Positions 1 through 7,586 of a stretch of DNA of 7,586 nucleotides are shown here, in pieces. A program made the position numbers and the translations under genes. Numbering within the stretch: the first letter of the stretch is position 1; each line of letters begins with the position of its first letter. Source of the DNA: a bacterium (lineage in GTDB: Bacteria; CAIJMQ01; JAADFP01). Location of the stretch: the NCBI GenBank assembly GCA_027021085.1, contig JALUVB010000156.1:1-7586 (forward strand), read 5' to 3'. A model generated the notes under the pieces. That model searched no databases, was not told the DNA's origin, and saw nothing but the letters and a program-made list of their open reading frames with translations.

Positions 1-46
1 TTGCCATTCATGCAAATCCTAACATCCCTTAGAACCTCTCCCAAGA

Positions 47-71
47 TACCAGGATTACCAGGATACCAGGG
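47..71. repeat. Short direct repeat, TACCAGGAT unit
   Basis: TACCAGGAT occurs at 47-55 and 56-64, with a third truncated copy TACCAGGG at 64-71 sharing one base. No coding potential is seen here. It is the first of three small arrays packed into the 174-base non-coding end. Confidence 0.6.
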
Positions 72-87
72 TACCGCCCATCTATTC

Positions 88-115
88 ACTGCTTACTGTT
101 TACTGCTCACTATCT
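88..115. repeat. Degenerate 7-bp tandem array, ACTGYTY type
   Basis: Four consecutive heptamers: ACTGCTT, ACTGTTT, ACTGCTC, ACTATCT. The period is exactly 7 with one or more substitutions per unit. Degenerate heptamer arrays of this kind are known from intergenic DNA of some bacteria, such as the cyanobacterial STRR sequences, but no relation to those is claimed. Confidence 0.6.
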
Positions 116-120
116 CCGGT

Positions 121-148
121 CTACAGTCTATAGTCTATAGTCTAAAAG
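121..148. repeat. Second 7-bp tandem array, CTATAGT type
   Basis: Four consecutive heptamers: CTACAGT, CTATAGT, CTATAGT, CTAAAAG. It has the same period as the array at 88-115 but a different unit, and lies six bases after it. It runs into the downstream side of the likely terminator. Confidence 0.65.
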
Positions 149-150
149 GT

Positions 151-177
151 CTAAAACCTAACCCCGCGAGGGGGTCA
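151..177 (-). terminator. Probable weak intrinsic terminator of the triple radical SAM gene
   Basis: On the minus strand ACCCC-CTCGC-GGGGT (175-161) begins at the last base of the stop codon and is followed by TAGGTTTTAG. A second small hairpin (AGGT-TTTAG-ACCT, 159-147) is followed by TTTT. The stems are short and the U-runs broken, so efficiency may be modest, but the position directly behind the stop codon fits. Confidence 0.45.
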
Positions 178-3100
178 TTCGGGAAAAACAGTGATATTTT
201 TTAATCGTTTCTTTAATATTAGATAACTTTCCACGCAGAAGGTAAGCAGGAGAAGCAGGGACAGCCTGGGCAGGAGGAGGATTCTTCGTAGGGAAAGGCG
301 TAGCCCCCTTTTAAATCTTACTATACGTTTTAAAAGTCTCCATCCCCTGCTCTGCAGGATGCTGTCCAGCTCCTCTCTCAGCCTGTTTTTCTCTTCTTCC
401 AATGCGTTTATTATCTTCTTGTCTTCTACCTCTACCACTTTTACCACTTCTTTTACCGGCGGGGTAAGTTTCTGCAGGGAATTTACCGCTTTCCTGAGTT
501 CTGAAAGGTTGCTTACCCTGTGTTCTTTCCCCTCTCTGAAGTTTGTTTCCTGCACCGGTATCCCCAGGTCCCAGGCCAGGCGGAGGAGTGTCTCTCCCCT
601 TCTTTTTCTGGTCTGGTAGTCGTTCCCATCTTCTGTCCACCACATATAATGCCAGTTGTCTTCCGGCAGATTTATCCCGTAGTCCCGGTGGTGGGTGTAA
701 ACATCGGTATCTTCTATCAGGTGAAGCGTATTTATTGACTTTATTTTGTCTATATAATCCGCGTTCCTTTCTATGAAGTCATAGGTCTGGTAGAACTCCT
801 TTTCTCCTTCTCCCGGAAAACCTACTATGATAAAGGTTTCCACTCTCATGCCTGCTTCTTTTGCCCAGCGGATTACTTGTTCTGCGTCTTCTGCCGTGTA
901 GAACTTCTTCATTCTTTTGAGCACTTTGCTTGACCCGCTCTCCACCCCAATCTGGAGTTTGTAGCAGCCTGCTTTTTTCATCTTTACGAGTAATTCCCGG
1001 CTCATATCCCGGCGCGGGGCAATCTGTCCGCTCCACTCTACCCGGAATCCCTTCTTGAGAATAAGGTCGCATATCCCCTCTACCTGGGGCAGGTATCCGT
1101 TGAGGAGAGGGTCTACCACGGTAAATTTTTTCACCCCGAGCCTTTTACAGTAATCTTCAATTCCTTCCACTACCCAGGGAGAATCATGGTAGCGGTACTG
1201 TTTTACCAGGCGGGGATTCTTGCAGAAAGCACATTTCCCGATGCATCCCCTGCTCCATTCCAGGAATAATTCGTCTCCCGGATATTGCTCTATCCTGAAG
1301 CCGTGGTAGTCAGGGTAGGGGATGGAATCAAGAGGCATTATGGGAGGGCGTGGCAGGTAGAAGCATTTCCCGGCATGGTAAACAGCCGCTCCCCTTACTC
1401 CGTCAATTTCCCTGCCTTCCTTAATCCTGCCGGCAATTTCTACCAGGGTTTCCTCTCCTTCTCCCACCACGTAGCATAGGATTTCCTCTCCTATCCTGTC
1501 TACGAATATCTGCCTTGCCTGGGAAGTGGAGGCAGAGGGGCCTCCCAGGATTATGGGAAAGCGGGCGCCCTTTTCCCGCAATCTTTTAATCAGGGAGATG
1601 GTTATCCTCTCTTTCCCGTCCACTACGGAAATTCCTAAAAGAGACGGGTTTTTGCGCAGTATGTCTTCCGCGCTTTTATCCAGTAATTCTTCTACGATGC
1701 TTTCTACCAGCGGGTAGGTTTCATCCCTTGCCCAGAAGTTTTTGTTTTCTACGTGCCAGAGGAGTTTCCACTCCTGGCTTACTTTTTTGTAGAATTTAAG
1801 GTTGAGGTCCATGCTTTCCACAGAAAAGCCTTTCTCGCGGGCATAACGGGAAAGAAAGGCCAGGGAAAGCGGGGGGTTTTCCACTCCCCAGGGAGGAGGA
1901 TTGATCAGGAGAATATCCAGCTTGCCTGCTTCTCCCCGGCAGGAAGTTTTCTTACCGACTTCACATTTTAGAGCAGCCTTTCTCTCAAATCCTGCCTTGC
2001 CCTCATCGTATATTCCGGCGAAGCGAACGTTTATCCCCAGGTCCTGAGCCAGCTCCAGTAATTCCCTGGTTCTTCTCTTCCGGATTTCGTAGGTATTGTC
2101 TCCTTCCAGACTTTCCCAGTAGTAGCACCAGTTACCTTTGGGCAGTTTTATAGAGAACTTCTCCGGCGATTTCTCCAGCTCTATATCTGCGTTTACATAG
2201 CAGGGGTTCAGGCTGGATATCTCGTCCACGTATTCCTTTATTGAGGCGAGTCTTTTCCTGGTAAGGGAAAAATCTTCCTCCCTTTCTCCCGGGAATCCCA
2301 CAATGAGGTTAATGGAAGTGCCGATACCTGCTTTCTTGGTATTTCGCAGAACCTCCTTGATTTCGGCAAAAGAATATTTCTTTTTCATCTTTTTCAACAC
2401 GTTCTCGGAGAGGCTTTCCACTCCGTAGGTAATCCAGTTAAGCCCGCTTTCCCTCAGTTTTTGCAGAAGAGAGGGGCTCATTTCCCTGCGGATAGTGCCC
2501 TGGGCATTCCACTGAATATTTAGGTTAGCATTGATGAGGTATTCTGACAACTCTTCCAGCCTCTTGAGGCTTCCGTTGAACATCAAATCGTTGCACTGGA
2601 ATATCTCTGTATTGAATTTCTCATGCATGGTTTTCATCTCCCGGAAGATATTATAAGCAGGTCGATACCGGTATTTGCCCTGCCATATTTTCCAGTCGTT
2701 GCAAAATGTGCATTTGTTCACACATCCCCGGCTGAACAGGATAGGCAGGGTATTCCGGGAGGGATAAAGATGCAGGGGAAATTTCTCCCAGGCAGGGAAG
2801 GGAATCTCATCCAGGTTCTTTATTAAGGAAGGGTGAGAAGGAGCAGTGTATTTACCGTTAAGGTAAATTATTGCTCCCGGCAGGGGATGCATATTGCCTG
2901 AGAGCAAGGAATTTATTAGCTGGCAGGTCGTTTCTTCCCCTTCACCTATCACAAAGGCATCTACCACGCCGGGCTCGGCAAAATAATCAGACGACTTAAA
3001 AGAAATCATGAATCTTAAAGGCATGACAGCATCGTTATAGAGGAATGAACAGGAGGGGCCGCCAAAGATGATGAATAAATCGGGTTTCTTCTGCTTCAGC

Positions 3101-4848
3101 CTCTTCGCCAGCTCTGCGGAAAACAGGATATTTGCCCCGTAGAGGGAAAAACCTATTACCCTGTATCCTTTCTCTATAATTTTATCTGCATAATGCTCTA
3201 TATCTTCTGCAAAATATTTTCTTGTTTCTTTGAAAAGGTCCTCCCAGGCCCAGAGGTTATAGTTTTCCATTTTCCAGAGATTCTTCCTTTTAGAATCACT
3301 ATGCACATAAGTTTCCACGTTTATATCCAGCACATCCACGGGTATGCCTTTGCTGTTCAGGTAGGCGGAAAGGTAGCCTACCCCTAAGGGAGGGATAGAA
3401 ACATCCCACATGGGACACATTAACAGGAGAACCCTCTCTTTTCCCTGGCTACGGGAGAAGGTGTCAGCCTGCAGGGTGCGGGGCAGGTTTGTGGTGAAAA
3501 TGTGCAGCTTATGGCTTTTTGCCTTTTTAATCAGCTTCTTAATGCGTTCCAGCCTTATGCGGGGAGTATTATCCCTGTTTTCCGTAAACCAGTGAGTATC
3601 TATTTTGCCCGTATCCTCTGGCAGTAAAATGCTGTATCTCTCCCGGTTTACCAGCAAATCCGAGCCCAATGTGGCATTGCACATATTAAGATTGGTAATT
3701 CCGCTTATGTTTTCTAAGTTTCTCTCTATGAATTCTGCGGTTTTTGTGAAATCTTCTTCGCTTTCACCCGGAAATCCCACTATGAAGTTTACCTGGGTAT
3801 TGATTCCTGCCTTCCGGGTATCCTCCAGCACTTTTCCCGCCTCTTCCGCGGTAAATTTTTTCTGCATCAGCTGTAGCACCCGGTTGGAACCTGACTCTAT
3901 GCCGTAATTCAAGGTGATACAACCCGCCTGCCTCATCTTGCAGAGCAAATCGTAGGTTAAAAATTTCCAGGGAATAGCTAAGGCAATCCATTCCACTTTG
4001 AAAGGAGCCTCTATCAGTAAATCGCATAAGCGGTTAAGTTCTGCGGGGTTTGCATTTATTGCCTGGTCATTGAAATAGAATTTTTTAATATTGTTTTTTC
4101 GCTGATGATACTCAATCTCCTCGTATATCTTCTTTGCCTGGCGGGTTCTCAATTTCCCTATGTATCGCCAGTCGTTGCAAAATGCACATTTGAATATACA
4201 ACCCCGGTTCATTAACAGGCATACAGCATTATCCCGGTATTTTGCCAGGTCAAACTCCTGGTAGGTGAGAAGAGGTAAATCCTGCAGGTCTTTTAAGAAT
4301 ACTGGTTTTACCACCTCTTCCGGGTCGCTTATAATCCCTTCTACTTCCTCCTCACCTTTTAAAAATTTGTAGAGTGCTTCTTCTCCCTCGCCTACCACGA
4401 AATAATCTATCAGGCCGGGCGGGAAGTTTCTTCGCTCCAGCACGTCGTATACTCCTCTTCCTCCGGCAATTAGTATTTTCTTGCTCCTCTCCTTTATTAT
4501 TCTGGCCACTTCCCGGCTGAAGAGGCGGTTCGGTGCATAAAGCGAAAACCCCACCTTGTCTATATCCTCTCTCATAATCCTCTCCGCTGCCCATTCTATT
4601 TCGTGCTCCAGCAGGGGTTTTATCTGGCGGTAGAATGAATCCGTCTCCCACCATAAATGCGCGTAATCCATCTCCCACAGCTTTCTTTTTTCCGGCGTAA
4701 CCCTGTGGTATAACTCTACGTTTAAATCCAGTACTTTTACTGCAACTTCCCTGCTCTGCAGGAAACTGCTGATAGAGGCCAATGAGAGGGGAGGAGTCTC
4801 CACTCCCCAGGAAGGAAGAATAACCAGGAGAATTTCCGGATTTTTCAA
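175..4848 (-). CDS. Three-module B12-binding-type radical SAM fusion protein with coiled-coil/hydrophobic tail
   Basis: A 1557-residue protein with three consecutive modules, each a cobalamin-binding-like Rossmann part followed by a radical SAM domain. 4Fe-4S motifs are CIFKCAFC (residues 217-224), CVNKCTFC (709-716) and CIGKCAFC (1202-1209), about 492 residues apart. Every module starts with a hydrophobic strand and a PPL(S/G) segment (residues 19, 486 and 992), has a GG turn followed by GEGEE (153, 635, 1129), and has GIES/GVES (316, 809, 1301) and GFPGE (358, 851, 1343) after the cluster. No DxHxxG cobalt-ligand motif is visible, so any cobalamin would bind without the usual histidine. Residues about 1463-1500 look like a coiled coil, followed by SRGWRLLKR, a basic stretch and a leucine-rich segment (about 1523-1545). 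Family knowledge suggests radical methyl transfer or related chemistry; the substrate is unknown. The start is TTG with AAGGAG 9 bases upstream. No start codon preceded by a ribosome site is apparent at the module junctions, so this is one gene. Confidence 0.93.
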   Translation of the reverse strand: MKNPEILLVILPSWGVETPPLSLASISSFLQSREVAVKVLDLNVELYHRVTPEKRKLWEMDYAHLWWETDSFYRQIKPLLEHEIEWAAERIMREDIDKVGFSLYAPNRLFSREVARIIKERSKKILIAGGRGVYDVLERRNFPPGLIDYFVVGEGEEALYKFLKGEEEVEGIISDPEEVVKPVFLKDLQDLPLLTYQEFDLAKYRDNAVCLLMNRGCIFKCAFCNDWRYIGKLRTRQAKKIYEEIEYHQRKNNIKKFYFNDQAINANPAELNRLCDLLIEAPFKVEWIALAIPWKFLTYDLLCKMRQAGCITLNYGIESGSNRVLQLMQKKFTAEEAGKVLEDTRKAGINTQVNFIVGFPGESEEDFTKTAEFIERNLENISGITNLNMCNATLGSDLLVNRERYSILLPEDTGKIDTHWFTENRDNTPRIRLERIKKLIKKAKSHKLHIFTTNLPRTLQADTFSRSQGKERVLLLMCPMWDVSIPPLGVGYLSAYLNSKGIPVDVLDINVETYVHSDSKRKNLWKMENYNLWAWEDLFKETRKYFAEDIEHYADKIIEKGYRVIGFSLYGANILFSAELAKRLKQKKPDLFIIFGGPSCSFLYNDAVMPLRFMISFKSSDYFAEPGVVDAFVIGEGEETTCQLINSLLSGNMHPLPGAIIYLNGKYTAPSHPSLIKNLDEIPFPAWEKFPLHLYPSRNTLPILFSRGCVNKCTFCNDWKIWQGKYRYRPAYNIFREMKTMHEKFNTEIFQCNDLMFNGSLKRLEELSEYLINANLNIQWNAQGTIRREMSPSLLQKLRESGLNWITYGVESLSENVLKKMKKKYSFAEIKEVLRNTKKAGIGTSINLIVGFPGEREEDFSLTRKRLASIKEYVDEISSLNPCYVNADIELEKSPEKFSIKLPKGNWCYYWESLEGDNTYEIRKRRTRELLELAQDLGINVRFAGIYDEGKAGFERKAALKCEVGKKTSCRGEAGKLDILLINPPPWGVENPPLSLAFLSRYAREKGFSVESMDLNLKFYKKVSQEWKLLWHVENKNFWARDETYPLVESIVEELLDKSAEDILRKNPSLLGISVVDGKERITISLIKRLREKGARFPIILGGPSASTSQARQIFVDRIGEEILCYVVGEGEETLVEIAGRIKEGREIDGVRGAAVYHAGKCFYLPRPPIMPLDSIPYPDYHGFRIEQYPGDELFLEWSRGCIGKCAFCKNPRLVKQYRYHDSPWVVEGIEDYCKRLGVKKFTVVDPLLNGYLPQVEGICDLILKKGFRVEWSGQIAPRRDMSRELLVKMKKAGCYKLQIGVESGSSKVLKRMKKFYTAEDAEQVIRWAKEAGMRVETFIIVGFPGEGEKEFYQTYDFIERNADYIDKIKSINTLHLIEDTDVYTHHRDYGINLPEDNWHYMWWTEDGNDYQTRKRRGETLLRLAWDLGIPVQETNFREGKEHRVSNLSELRKAVNSLQKLTPPVKEVVKVVEVEDKKIINALEEEKNRLREELDSILQSRGWRLLKRIVRFKRGLRLSLRRILLLPRLSLLLLLTFCVESYLILKKRLKNITVFPE
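4168..4192. repeat. Nucleotide-level echo of the Fe-S cluster region shared by modules 1 and 2
   Basis: These 25 bases encode part of the first 4Fe-4S motif of the triple radical SAM gene and match 2692-2716, in the second module, at 23 of 25 positions, with the first 17 bases (CCAGTCGTTGCAAAATG on the plus strand) identical. The third module does not share this stretch (it has CKNP where the others have CNDW). A shorter identity, TCCACTCCCCAGG, links the N-terminal ends of modules 1 and 3 near 4800 and 1880. Together they suggest that the modules arose by duplication inside the gene, although some identity would follow from protein constraint alone. Confidence 0.6.
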
Positions 4849-4909: not shown

Positions 4910-5338
4910 CTACCCGCCTGTTCTTTCTAACCATGTTATCCTGTCGAAATCCCTGTCAAAACTCATTATTCTCTTTATGTTTTTCTCCCTGGCCACCAGA
5001 GCAATCAAGCAGTCGTGAAAATTAAGTTTACCTTCATGCTCTTTCATAAGCAGGAGGATGTTCTTATAGTAATTGATTATATTGGGATATGTCCATATAA
5101 TTATCTCCGGGGGTATTGCCTTGCAGATAGCATCTATTACCTGGTTAATCTGCTCGCCTTTTCCTCTTTCTACGGCTCTCCTGCATAATACTGAAAATAC
5201 TTCGTTGAGGACACAATCCAGAATTATGCCTTCAATGCCCTTTCTTTCCATCAATTGCACTGCCTTGGAATGCCAGAGGTCATCTTTATCAAAATAACCT
5301 ACTAAAATATTAGCATCCAGTATGGTTTTCTCATTCAT
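4910..5338 (-). CDS. vapC: PIN-domain ribonuclease toxin, VapC-like
   Basis: A 142-residue protein of the usual VapC length. PIN toxins are Mg2+-dependent ribonucleases that cut RNA (tRNA or rRNA in studied members) when not held by their antitoxin. The acidic residues are where the family puts them: D8 in LDANILVGYF, E46 in LNEVF, D109 in NFHDCLIAL, and D128/D130/D132 in SFDRDFD. The active site therefore looks intact. The ATG at 5338 is chosen because it lies inside the end of the antitoxin gene (8-base overlap, ATGAATGA), as is typical for translational coupling. The longer frame reaching 5365 would intrude further into the antitoxin and adds nothing PIN-like. Regulation is probably by the antitoxin-toxin complex at the palindrome upstream of the antitoxin gene. 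The target RNA cannot be inferred. Confidence 0.9.
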   Translation of the reverse strand: MNEKTILDANILVGYFDKDDLWHSKAVQLMERKGIEGIILDCVLNEVFSVLCRRAVERGKGEQINQVIDAICKAIPPEIIIWTYPNIINYYKNILLLMKEHEGKLNFHDCLIALVAREKNIKRIMSFDRDFDRITWLERTGG

Positions 5339-5549
5339 AGTACTCCTCGCTGTCTTTAACGGCATCTCCTCCCCATCCCACGATTCCCTTTAGCCTGGAG
5401 AGAGTATCTACCGGAAGGGAAGGTACTGGCTCAGAAATCACTTTCTCCAGTGTCTTCTCTATAAATTTGGATAGACTCATCCCTTTTCTGCGGGCTTTCT
5501 CTCGCACTTTATTCAGAAGAGGTTCTTTTATATAGATTGATATATTCAT
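5331..5549 (-). CDS. vapB: Ribbon-helix-helix antitoxin, VapB-like
   Basis: A 72-residue protein with the layout of a ribbon-helix-helix antitoxin. Residues 2-7 (NISIYI) form the DNA-contacting strand, about 9-23 the first helix, a glycine-methionine-serine turn follows, and about 26-40 the second helix (LSKFIEKTLEKVI). The C-terminal 30 residues (RLKGIVGWGGDAV, then DSEEYYE) are the type of acidic tail that wraps the PIN toxin. The start is ATG 5549, seven bases after a strong GGAGGT; a GTG at 5558 is in frame but overlaps that ribosome site. The gene ends 8 bases inside vapC. A perfect 18-bp palindrome 20 bases upstream is a good candidate for its own operator. Family calls such as VapB and other ribbon-helix-helix antitoxins are hard to separate at this length. 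Confidence 0.85.
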   Translation of the reverse strand: MNISIYIKEPLLNKVREKARRKGMSLSKFIEKTLEKVISEPVPSLPVDTLSRLKGIVGWGGDAVKDSEEYYE

Positions 5550-5556
5550 TTCTCTC

Positions 5557-5562
5557 ACCTCC
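5557..5562 (-). promoter_or_regulatory. Shine-Dalgarno site of the antitoxin gene
   Basis: GGAGGT on the minus strand, seven bases before ATG 5549. It is the strongest ribosome site in the window and decides the antitoxin start in favour of 5549 over the in-frame GTG at 5558. Confidence 0.8.
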
Positions 5563-5723: not shown

Positions 5724-7586
5724 TCAGGAAATTCTGCCTCTCATCTTTCTCTCCACGAAATCAAACAGGTTATACCTCTTGAGCAGTTCTATCATCATCA
5801 TGTTCTGGTCATGGTTATCGCAGGAATCACAGTATGCCTCATAGAGGGGATTCCCGTATAGGGTCAGGGGATTTTCCCTGTGCATGATAAGTCCGTCGTT
5901 TCTGTACCTTCTGTAAGTATCAGAAAACCACAGGTCCTTCAATCCCTTGCCGTCTTTATCCAGGATTCCCACGGTTTTTGCCCCGCAGCACATGAATACC
6001 TCCCTCCTTAAATGAACAAAGGCAAAATGCCAGCCTACAAAGCATCCCTGGTGGAGCAATCCCTCCCTGGACCAGTCGCCCTTTTCCTCGTTGTAATGTT
6101 CCAGTTCAAATTCAATAAAAGAGTGAAACCCCAGGCCTATGCTTTTGCATAATACTTTTGCCTTCTTCAGCAAACGCTTCACTTCACTCATTTCTTCCTT
6201 GGTCAGGTAAAGTTTATCCCGGCTGAAATCTTCCAGGTGCACCAATTGATACCATACCGAATCTGCTCCTAACATCCTGGCATGCAGTGCCATGTTGATA
6301 ATTTCCCGGTAATTGTACTTGCATATTGCATACAGAGCTACTATCTGGGGAAGAGATAGGTTATGGGCTCTCTTAAGCTCTCTTAGTGCCTGCACGTTCT
6401 TCTCTATCCTTCTCAAAAGCGAGGGATTTATAGCGGGGCGAATCATCCGGAAAGACTCCTCCGAGGCAAAAGACAGGCTCACGGTAACACTGGTACAGGC
6501 GCCTTCTATGAGGTGCTTGTTATACAAGTCTAACAACACCCCGTTGGTAGAAAAATTAAATTTAAGCCCCATCTCTTTTATCAGGCTGATTATCTTGAGA
6601 AACTCGGGATGCAGCGTGGGCTCTCCTCCACCCACCAGGAGCACTGCTTCCAGGTCCATCTCCTTTGCCTCGGAGAGCACATTTTTCACGCTGGCGAAGT
6701 CCAGGAAGCCAAAGAGTTCCGGATGCTTTCCCTCCCAGTACTTCTTATTCCAGGGGGAAAATCTCCTGCAGTATACACAATCCAGATTACATCGGCCGGC
6801 TAAATCAAAGAGTATATACCTGGGGCCGGTAAAAACGTCTTTGCATACTGGTCCAAGCGCCAGCAGAAAATCTTTCTCCCGGAAATCTTCCCGCGCCTGG
6901 CACTCTTCCATCACGGTCAACAGCTCCTCCAAGCGGCTGTCCACTATTCTGAACTCTATCCCCTCCTTCTTGACCTTTTCGTTTATTTCCCCCAGATATT
7001 TGTAGAATCTTTCCTTTATCCCTCCTATAGGCTTAATGGCAAACGCGGGTAAGACAGATTTTTTACTGCCCCTTGCTTTTTCTATAAGCTCGTATATCTT
7101 GTGCAGGCGGTGGAAATTGGTTCTCCTCACTCCCACCAAGGTATGATAAGTGGCTTTCCGGGAGGCAAGTTGTTTCAACTTATCCACCTGCTTGAAAAAA
7201 TCGTTCTCATCCAGCTCTACCCCCCAGCGGTGCACTTCAGAGGTATCTCCGCAGAGATAGATACAGGGCACATCCAGGGAAAGAGAAGAAGGTAATCTCC
7301 GCTCTTCCGGGTCTTCGTATTTTCCGATTACATCCAGGTGTTTATACTCCTCGTACTTTATCAGGTCCGGATAATCCTTGATACCAGTGGAACTCACCTC
7401 TCTTATTTCCGGCGGTAGAATAACTCTGCCCGGCTTATAATCAACCTCTTCCTCTTCCTTGACCATGTCTTTCACCACCTCGTTCCACCTCTTCCAGTGC
7501 AGTGGGAAATAGCAGTTAATCAGGAAATGGCAGTTTTCCCGGCAGAAAGATGCCTTCTTCCTTACCGCAGGAAATTTCTCCTGGTA
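5724..7586 (-). CDS. Radical SAM/SPASM-type protein with a degenerate N-terminal radical SAM-like domain (probably 5' partial)
   Basis: Residues are numbered from the first codon in the window (620 codons visible). The C-terminal half is a clear radical SAM domain: CNLDCVYC (266-273) for the 4Fe-4S cluster and LVGGGEPTLHPEF (317-329) for SAM binding. A cysteine-containing tail follows (C515, C533-C534, C586-x2-C589), arranged like a SPASM or twitch auxiliary cluster domain. Residues about 95-200 resemble this domain: CIYLCGDT (108-115) sits where CxxxCxxC would be, and LVGVRRTNFHRLHKIYELI (150-168) aligns with the GGGEPT region. The third cysteine and the GGE motif are lost, so this part is probably non-catalytic. 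The frame is open to the window edge, with a C-x3-C-x5-C group at codons 15-25, so the true start lies outside. A GTG at 7478 with a GAGGTGG upstream is the alternative start. Such proteins often modify peptides or act on glycans and lipids; the substrate is unknown. Confidence 0.85.
   Translation of the reverse strand, partial: YQEKFPAVRKKASFCRENCHFLINCYFPLHWKRWNEVVKDMVKEEEEVDYKPGRVILPPEIREVSSTGIKDYPDLIKYEEYKHLDVIGKYEDPEERRLPSSLSLDVPCIYLCGDTSEVHRWGVELDENDFFKQVDKLKQLASRKATYHTLVGVRRTNFHRLHKIYELIEKARGSKKSVLPAFAIKPIGGIKERFYKYLGEINEKVKKEGIEFRIVDSRLEELLTVMEECQAREDFREKDFLLALGPVCKDVFTGPRYILFDLAGRCNLDCVYCRRFSPWNKKYWEGKHPELFGFLDFASVKNVLSEAKEMDLEAVLLVGGGEPTLHPEFLKIISLIKEMGLKFNFSTNGVLLDLYNKHLIEGACTSVTVSLSFASEESFRMIRPAINPSLLRRIEKNVQALRELKRAHNLSLPQIVALYAICKYNYREIINMALHARMLGADSVWYQLVHLEDFSRDKLYLTKEEMSEVKRLLKKAKVLCKSIGLGFHSFIEFELEHYNEEKGDWSREGLLHQGCFVGWHFAFVHLRREVFMCCGAKTVGILDKDGKGLKDLWFSDTYRRYRNDGLIMHRENPLTLYGNPLYEAYCDSCDNHDQNMMMIELLKRYNLFDFVERKMRGRIS

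Follow-up and report, generated by a model that had tools for sequence, protein, structure and literature searches.

Radical SAM enzymes have, to our knowledge, nearly always been described with one radical site per chain. The window analyzed here (the whole stretch of DNA, 7,586 nucleotides long) was annotated in a first pass as encoding three complete B12-type radical SAM modules in a single polypeptide. This locus raises the question of whether such a protein is genuine, whether its modules are three enzymes or three copies of one, and what it acts upon.

The trimodular B12-binding/radical SAM protein has 1557 aa and is encoded at positions 175 to 4848 of the reverse strand, with a TTG start codon preceded by AAGGAG. 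Pfam profiles detected in it three stretches of PF04055 (Radical_SAM; E = 5.1e-68) and three of PF02310 (B12-binding; E = 3.6e-32), supporting that each module has its own B12-type N-terminal part. Detection of only one radical SAM domain, which would have refuted the first-pass annotation, was not observed. In a scan of the whole genome, the three radical SAM domains, lying in a single stop-free frame, scored 91.5, 80.1 and 77.7 bits, each above the cut-off; an Rfam scan of the window gave no match. Module 1 (aa 1-462) spans positions 3463 to 4848, module 2 (aa 468-952) positions 1993 to 3447 and module 3 (aa 974-1447) positions 508 to 1929, all on the reverse strand. A motif search located the CxxxCxxC clusters, on the same strand, as CIFKCAFC in module 1 (aa 217-224; 4177 to 4200), CVNKCTFC in module 2 (aa 709-716; 2701 to 2724) and CIGKCAFC in module 3 (aa 1202-1209; 1222 to 1245). 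Their starts at residues 217, 709 and 1202 give the annotated spacing of 492 and 493 residues, and each is accompanied, as had been claimed, by GEGEE (residues 153, 635 and 1129), G[IV]ES (316, 809 and 1301) and GFPGE (358, 851 and 1343). This threefold motif set is far above chance: in 2000 shuffles of the protein, CxxxCxxC occurred 0.0065 times on average and at most once.

The open frame could have been an assembly join of separate genes. A copy from the same genus (genome G001) is 84 to 89% identical to the window ORF. A single-base deletion inside its module 2 breaks the frame, and we counted this against the explanation favored below. The deletion site lies near position 5558 of locus L046, in the GFPGE region, and splits the ORF; whether it is an error or a real break is undecided. 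An intact three-module ORF of 1509 aa was found in a sister genus (G002) and another of 1545 aa in another phylum, in the Omnitrophota genome G297 (48% identity over window residues 3-1459). Genome M55B113 has a module 2-module 3 pair that is interrupted by the contig end. Since the fusion is intact in the sister genus and in Omnitrophota, we rejected an assembly artifact, the second outcome that would have refuted the annotation. Comparison with the G001 copy yielded dN/dS values of 0.143, 0.141 and 0.082 for modules 1, 2 and 3; every module is under purifying selection. With an open frame and dN/dS values of 0.08 to 0.14, pseudogene status of the window copy was rejected as well. Three probable active sites are supported by the profiles, the motifs, this selection and the OxsB-like fold of module 3 (see below), activity itself being inferred. 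The modules are followed by a C-terminal tail of about 110 residues (positions 178 to 513, reverse strand), a coiled coil and then a basic/hydrophobic segment with SRGWRLLKRI, which is kept in G001 (90%; dN/dS of 0.135 against this same-genus copy) and in G002 (54% over 78 aa). Conservation of the tail is confined to the family.

Related proteins occur in a third phylum, which is neither that of the window nor Omnitrophota, with matches in 7/7 genomes. Six ORFs of 2.36 to 2.61 kaa, from six genomes, consist of a radical SAM and SPASM part followed by four B12 modules, and five ORFs of 1.95 to 2.11 kaa (5/7 genomes) have a SPASM-type radical SAM domain after three B12 modules. The maximum in one open frame, five radical SAM domains, was reached in this phylum. 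Omnitrophota have single, paired or triple modules in various orders, combined with between one and three SPASM-type domains. Only 7 of 386 genomes, sampled around the window and mostly spread over other bacteria, gave matches at 1e-60, and the multi-module kind is therefore rare outside these groups. One scan of genome contigs with the whole protein as the query returned close relatives only.

The origin of the modules was investigated in trees of 61 and 71 modules. Module 1 of the window protein clusters with module 2 of the four-module proteins from another phylum and with module 1 of the Omnitrophota genome G228. Module 2 clusters with stand-alone, single-module Omnitrophota genes and with module 2 of G297, and module 3 with modules in last position, both in the three-module-plus-SPASM proteins and in G297. 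In the trees made here, every member of the module 3 lineage is either the final or the sole B12 module of its protein; some Omnitrophota encode it without another B12 module, e.g., in a 564-aa gene of G228 beside a 1523-aa two-module gene. The search for separate-gene forms of the modules was thus successful in part: the module 2 lineage, at least, occurs stand-alone, and the module 3 lineage is found in genes with a single B12 module, some of them fused to another radical SAM domain. Module 1 of G297 belongs to a lineage other than that of window module 1; the origin of the first module therefore differs despite the colinear protein. The modules share about 45 to 55% identity with members of their respective lineages from other phyla, but only 33 to 34% with one another. 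Forcing the window-family modules into one clade was rejected (p-AU = 7.5e-6), and with it a recent triplication inside the lineage. Each window module thus comes from a different ancient lineage, and the protein is of mosaic origin. Together with the AU rejection, this phylogeny makes the modules look like three different enzymes. One alignment column differs in all three lineages, another 30 separate two or more lineages and 44 are common to all; with a single fully discriminating column, a specificity code was not identified.

The window gene is only one part of a larger radical SAM array. Upstream lies another radical SAM gene whose 5' end is off the contig (5724 to 7586, reverse strand). 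Its SPASM-type radical SAM domain (5769 to 6875, reverse strand) shares homology with the domain that, in another phylum, forms the C-terminal part of a protein with three B12 modules, and by this Rosetta-stone argument the two genes are tied functionally. The last 127 bases of the window (7460 to 7586, forward strand) overlap exactly with one end of contig C86 (L054), as is expected for a k-mer assembler, and C86 holds the rest of the upstream gene and a further two-radical-SAM ORF. After joining the contigs for annotation, the upstream gene extends to an ORF of 932 aa that includes two radical SAM domains and corresponds to one continuous 903-aa ORF in G001. Before it on C86 is an ORF of 978 aa that is truncated by the end of the contig and has two SPASM-type domains; the homologue of this ORF in G001 is a 1540-aa B12-SPASM-SPASM protein. 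Seven radical SAM domains are seen in the array and, judging from this homologue, there are probably eight. The array could not be extended beyond C86, the last 127 bases of which were found in no other contig. Between the two array genes of the window lies a toxin-antitoxin-like ribbon-helix-helix and PIN-domain pair (4910 to 5558, reverse strand), with no homologue seen in G001, where the gap between these genes is only about 218 bases. Window positions 1 to 127 are a dispersed intergenic repeat (44 matches in the genome, 74 to 91% identity), which is probably why the contig ends there.

We then considered the neighboring genes. In nine relatives' loci, the gene immediately next to the array encodes a long Wzt-like ABC ATPase. 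Seven loci have an ABC-2 permease, six have a flavin amine-oxidase-like protein, and glycosyltransferases come next. Three further genomes have the ATPase at most about 2.5 kb away from the array. The closest NCBIfam names for the exporter of the window's family are galactan Wzt/Wzm and TagH, all below the cut-off. The window's genome has a full-length exporter operon with a WecA-like transferase, located on contig C33 and not on the window contig. This exporter is most similar to that of G002, which lies directly upstream of the array, and the presumed exporter-array link in the window's genus rests on this homology. Within the class, the full-length ATPase and the array are both present in 3/3 genomes of the window's family and in 0/4 of the other family. 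Glycosyltransferases were found at the relatives' loci and, in the same-genus genome, next to the gene for the B12-SPASM-SPASM protein; the window contig has none. The arrays of the third phylum have other neighbors, a carbamoyltransferase (six loci), a GDSL hydrolase and an NDP-sugar epimerase, which we counted against the favored explanation; these genes are also sugar-related. The relatives' arrays resemble Wzm/Wzt ABC-transporter glycan loci in having a Wzm/Wzt-like exporter and glycosyltransferases alongside, and differ from these loci by the ATPase, whose extra C-terminal part matched no Pfam family. We found no description of a radical SAM array at Wzm/Wzt loci in the literature searched. 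The C-terminal part (ATPases at L048 6175-8928 and L049 16136-18709 and in relatives) has about 650 aa and seemingly contains repeats, e.g., GRGRIFWxxKELTxGLGLYTSL; it is possibly a new glycan-reading domain.

We regard it as rather probable, while far from certain, that the protein is a modular multi-enzyme performing three different cobalamin-radical reactions in surface-glycan biosynthesis. Its architecture and mosaic origin are established by the data above; its chemistry, cobalamin binding and substrate are inferred. The chain would carry three non-equivalent cobalamin-dependent radical SAM active sites, each module by inference holding its own [4Fe-4S] cluster, SAM and cobalamin, and each would catalyze its own reaction, presumably a methylation or else a dehydration or rearrangement. 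One substrate or intermediate may pass through several of these steps on the chain without release. Judging from the relatives' loci, the substrate would be a sugar residue of a surface glycan, or this glycan's lipid-linked precursor, and a Wzm/Wzt-type ABC transporter would export the glycan. The neighboring SPASM-type radical SAM proteins would belong to the same pathway, because in another phylum the same protein carries a fused domain of this type. The basic/hydrophobic tail, which we take to resemble the tails of some glycosyltransferases, may anchor the enzyme at the membrane. The giant arrays are mostly beside surface-sugar export genes, suggesting enzymes that act in series on one molecule. 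A bolder version, which we put forward only as a conjecture, is that these loci are radical-SAM assembly lines in which specialized modules are recombined between proteins, as in polyketide synthases; each module would work a single time, at its own fixed position on a glycan intermediate bound to a carrier, and module order and identity would encode the product.

The main rival to a glycan is a peptide substrate. The array could be a RiPP-like maturation system working on one precursor, with the three B12 modules as C-methyltransferases for different residues and the SPASM proteins as cross-linking enzymes, a possibility that we consider unlikely and yet cannot dismiss. Indeed, the best curated profile for the whole window protein is TIGR03975 (rSAM_ocin_1, RiPP C-methyltransferases; 357 bits), and rSAM_ocin_1 is the best NCBIfam subfamily for modules 2 and 3 (137 and 144 bits), ApyD being best for module 1. 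However, the single modules score 144.1, 137.0 and 91.2 bits, far below the cut-off of 281.85 bits, which is exceeded only by the sum of the three. The array partners are of the SPASM type, which is most frequent among peptide-modifying enzymes, but no RiPP recognition domain was detected in Pfam scans of the array proteins. Moreover, adjacent genes of the G002 and G297 arrays overlap or lie almost end to end, apparently leaving no space for a precursor gene; in seeming contrast to TIGR03975 systems, none was seen in these tightly packed loci. The same genome does have a separate RiPP cassette, but its precursor is on other contigs, and in G001 a transposase-like ORF lies between the cassette and the exporter operon. 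The recurrent neighbors of the array are glycan export genes instead. The cassette itself is SynChlorMet-like (L173 12645-13951; G000:C148:4647-5818), with a putative precursor (core approximately CTSGSSASGTGGCYAGSAA) that is 90% conserved between two species, a ScmC-like protein and radical SAM genes.

Structure models were compared with known enzymes. The AlphaFold2 model of module 3 (pLDDT 84.3, pTM 0.82) superimposed on OxsB with a Z score of 28.2 (rmsd 3.2 over 413 residues) and also matched MgmA, AprD4 (Z of 26.0), TsrM, CysS and TokK; the match to OxsB and TsrM extends across both domains. OxsB, TsrM, MgmA, CysS and TokK share the layout of a B12-binding Rossmann part and a radical SAM part with each window module. 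Identity is only 14 to 20%, and their structures have one module per chain; the window protein has three different ones, and its relatives reach four plus a SPASM-type domain. AprD4, a radical SAM 1,2-diol dehydratase of an aminoglycoside sugar, resembles module 3 in fold and has a sugar substrate; it differs in being a single module, and the whole window protein reached only 79 bits with its family profile NF033070 (cut-off of 500). AprD4 is not known to use cobalamin. As its fit is nearly equal to that of OxsB, B12 binding is not proven. FbiC, the fused CofG/CofH FO synthase, provides a precedent for two radical SAM domains of one pathway on one polypeptide; it differs in lacking B12 domains, in having two domains only and in belonging to an unrelated subfamily. 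CofG/CofH domains were not among the best 25 NCBIfam matches. It remains conceivable, if doubtful, that only some modules are catalytic and the rest bind the substrate or pass it along. The sequence does not exclude this, and with a pTM of 0.45 the AlphaFold2 model of modules 2 and 3 gives no reliable view of module packing. However, the cluster and SAM motifs are intact in all three modules, and purifying selection is similar across them.

Tailoring of a hopanoid-like or ladderane-like lipid in place of a glycan also appears improbable. The G297 array has a stand-alone B12 radical SAM protein next to it that matched HpnJ best (240 bits; cut-off of 577.6), and rSAM_ladder_B12 was among the matches of the window modules, but all of these scores are below the cut-offs, and the neighbors are glycosyltransferases, a WecA-like transferase and a glycan-type exporter. 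Beyond equal module lengths and near-constant spacing, very little supports a structural pseudo-trimer, an option raised in the first-pass annotation, in the sense of three fused copies of one activity kept for stability or dosage: the modules are not copies of each other, being closer to their own lineages in other phyla, and were exchanged independently, and a lineage-internal single origin was rejected.

The component parts of the system are known. We found no description of a tandem or multi-module B12 radical SAM protein in the literature searched, from which subscription papers were mostly missing, nor of fusions joining three or four B12 modules, of SPASM fusions, of cross-phylum module exchange or of the exporter link. 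A search within a 2025 review of the cobalamin-binding domain (PMC13331322) likewise gave no such tandem or multi-module protein. Chains with three to five radical SAM domains, in loci with about seven or eight, thus occur in at least three bacterial phyla, with modules exchanged between them. The coexistence of colinear and split forms permits direct tests of each module's role. If the sites act in series, these proteins would be a modular system of radical biosynthesis. If the probable link to glycan export is true, uncultivated anaerobes would carry surface sugars with radical-installed changes, e.g., carbon methylation or deoxygenation.
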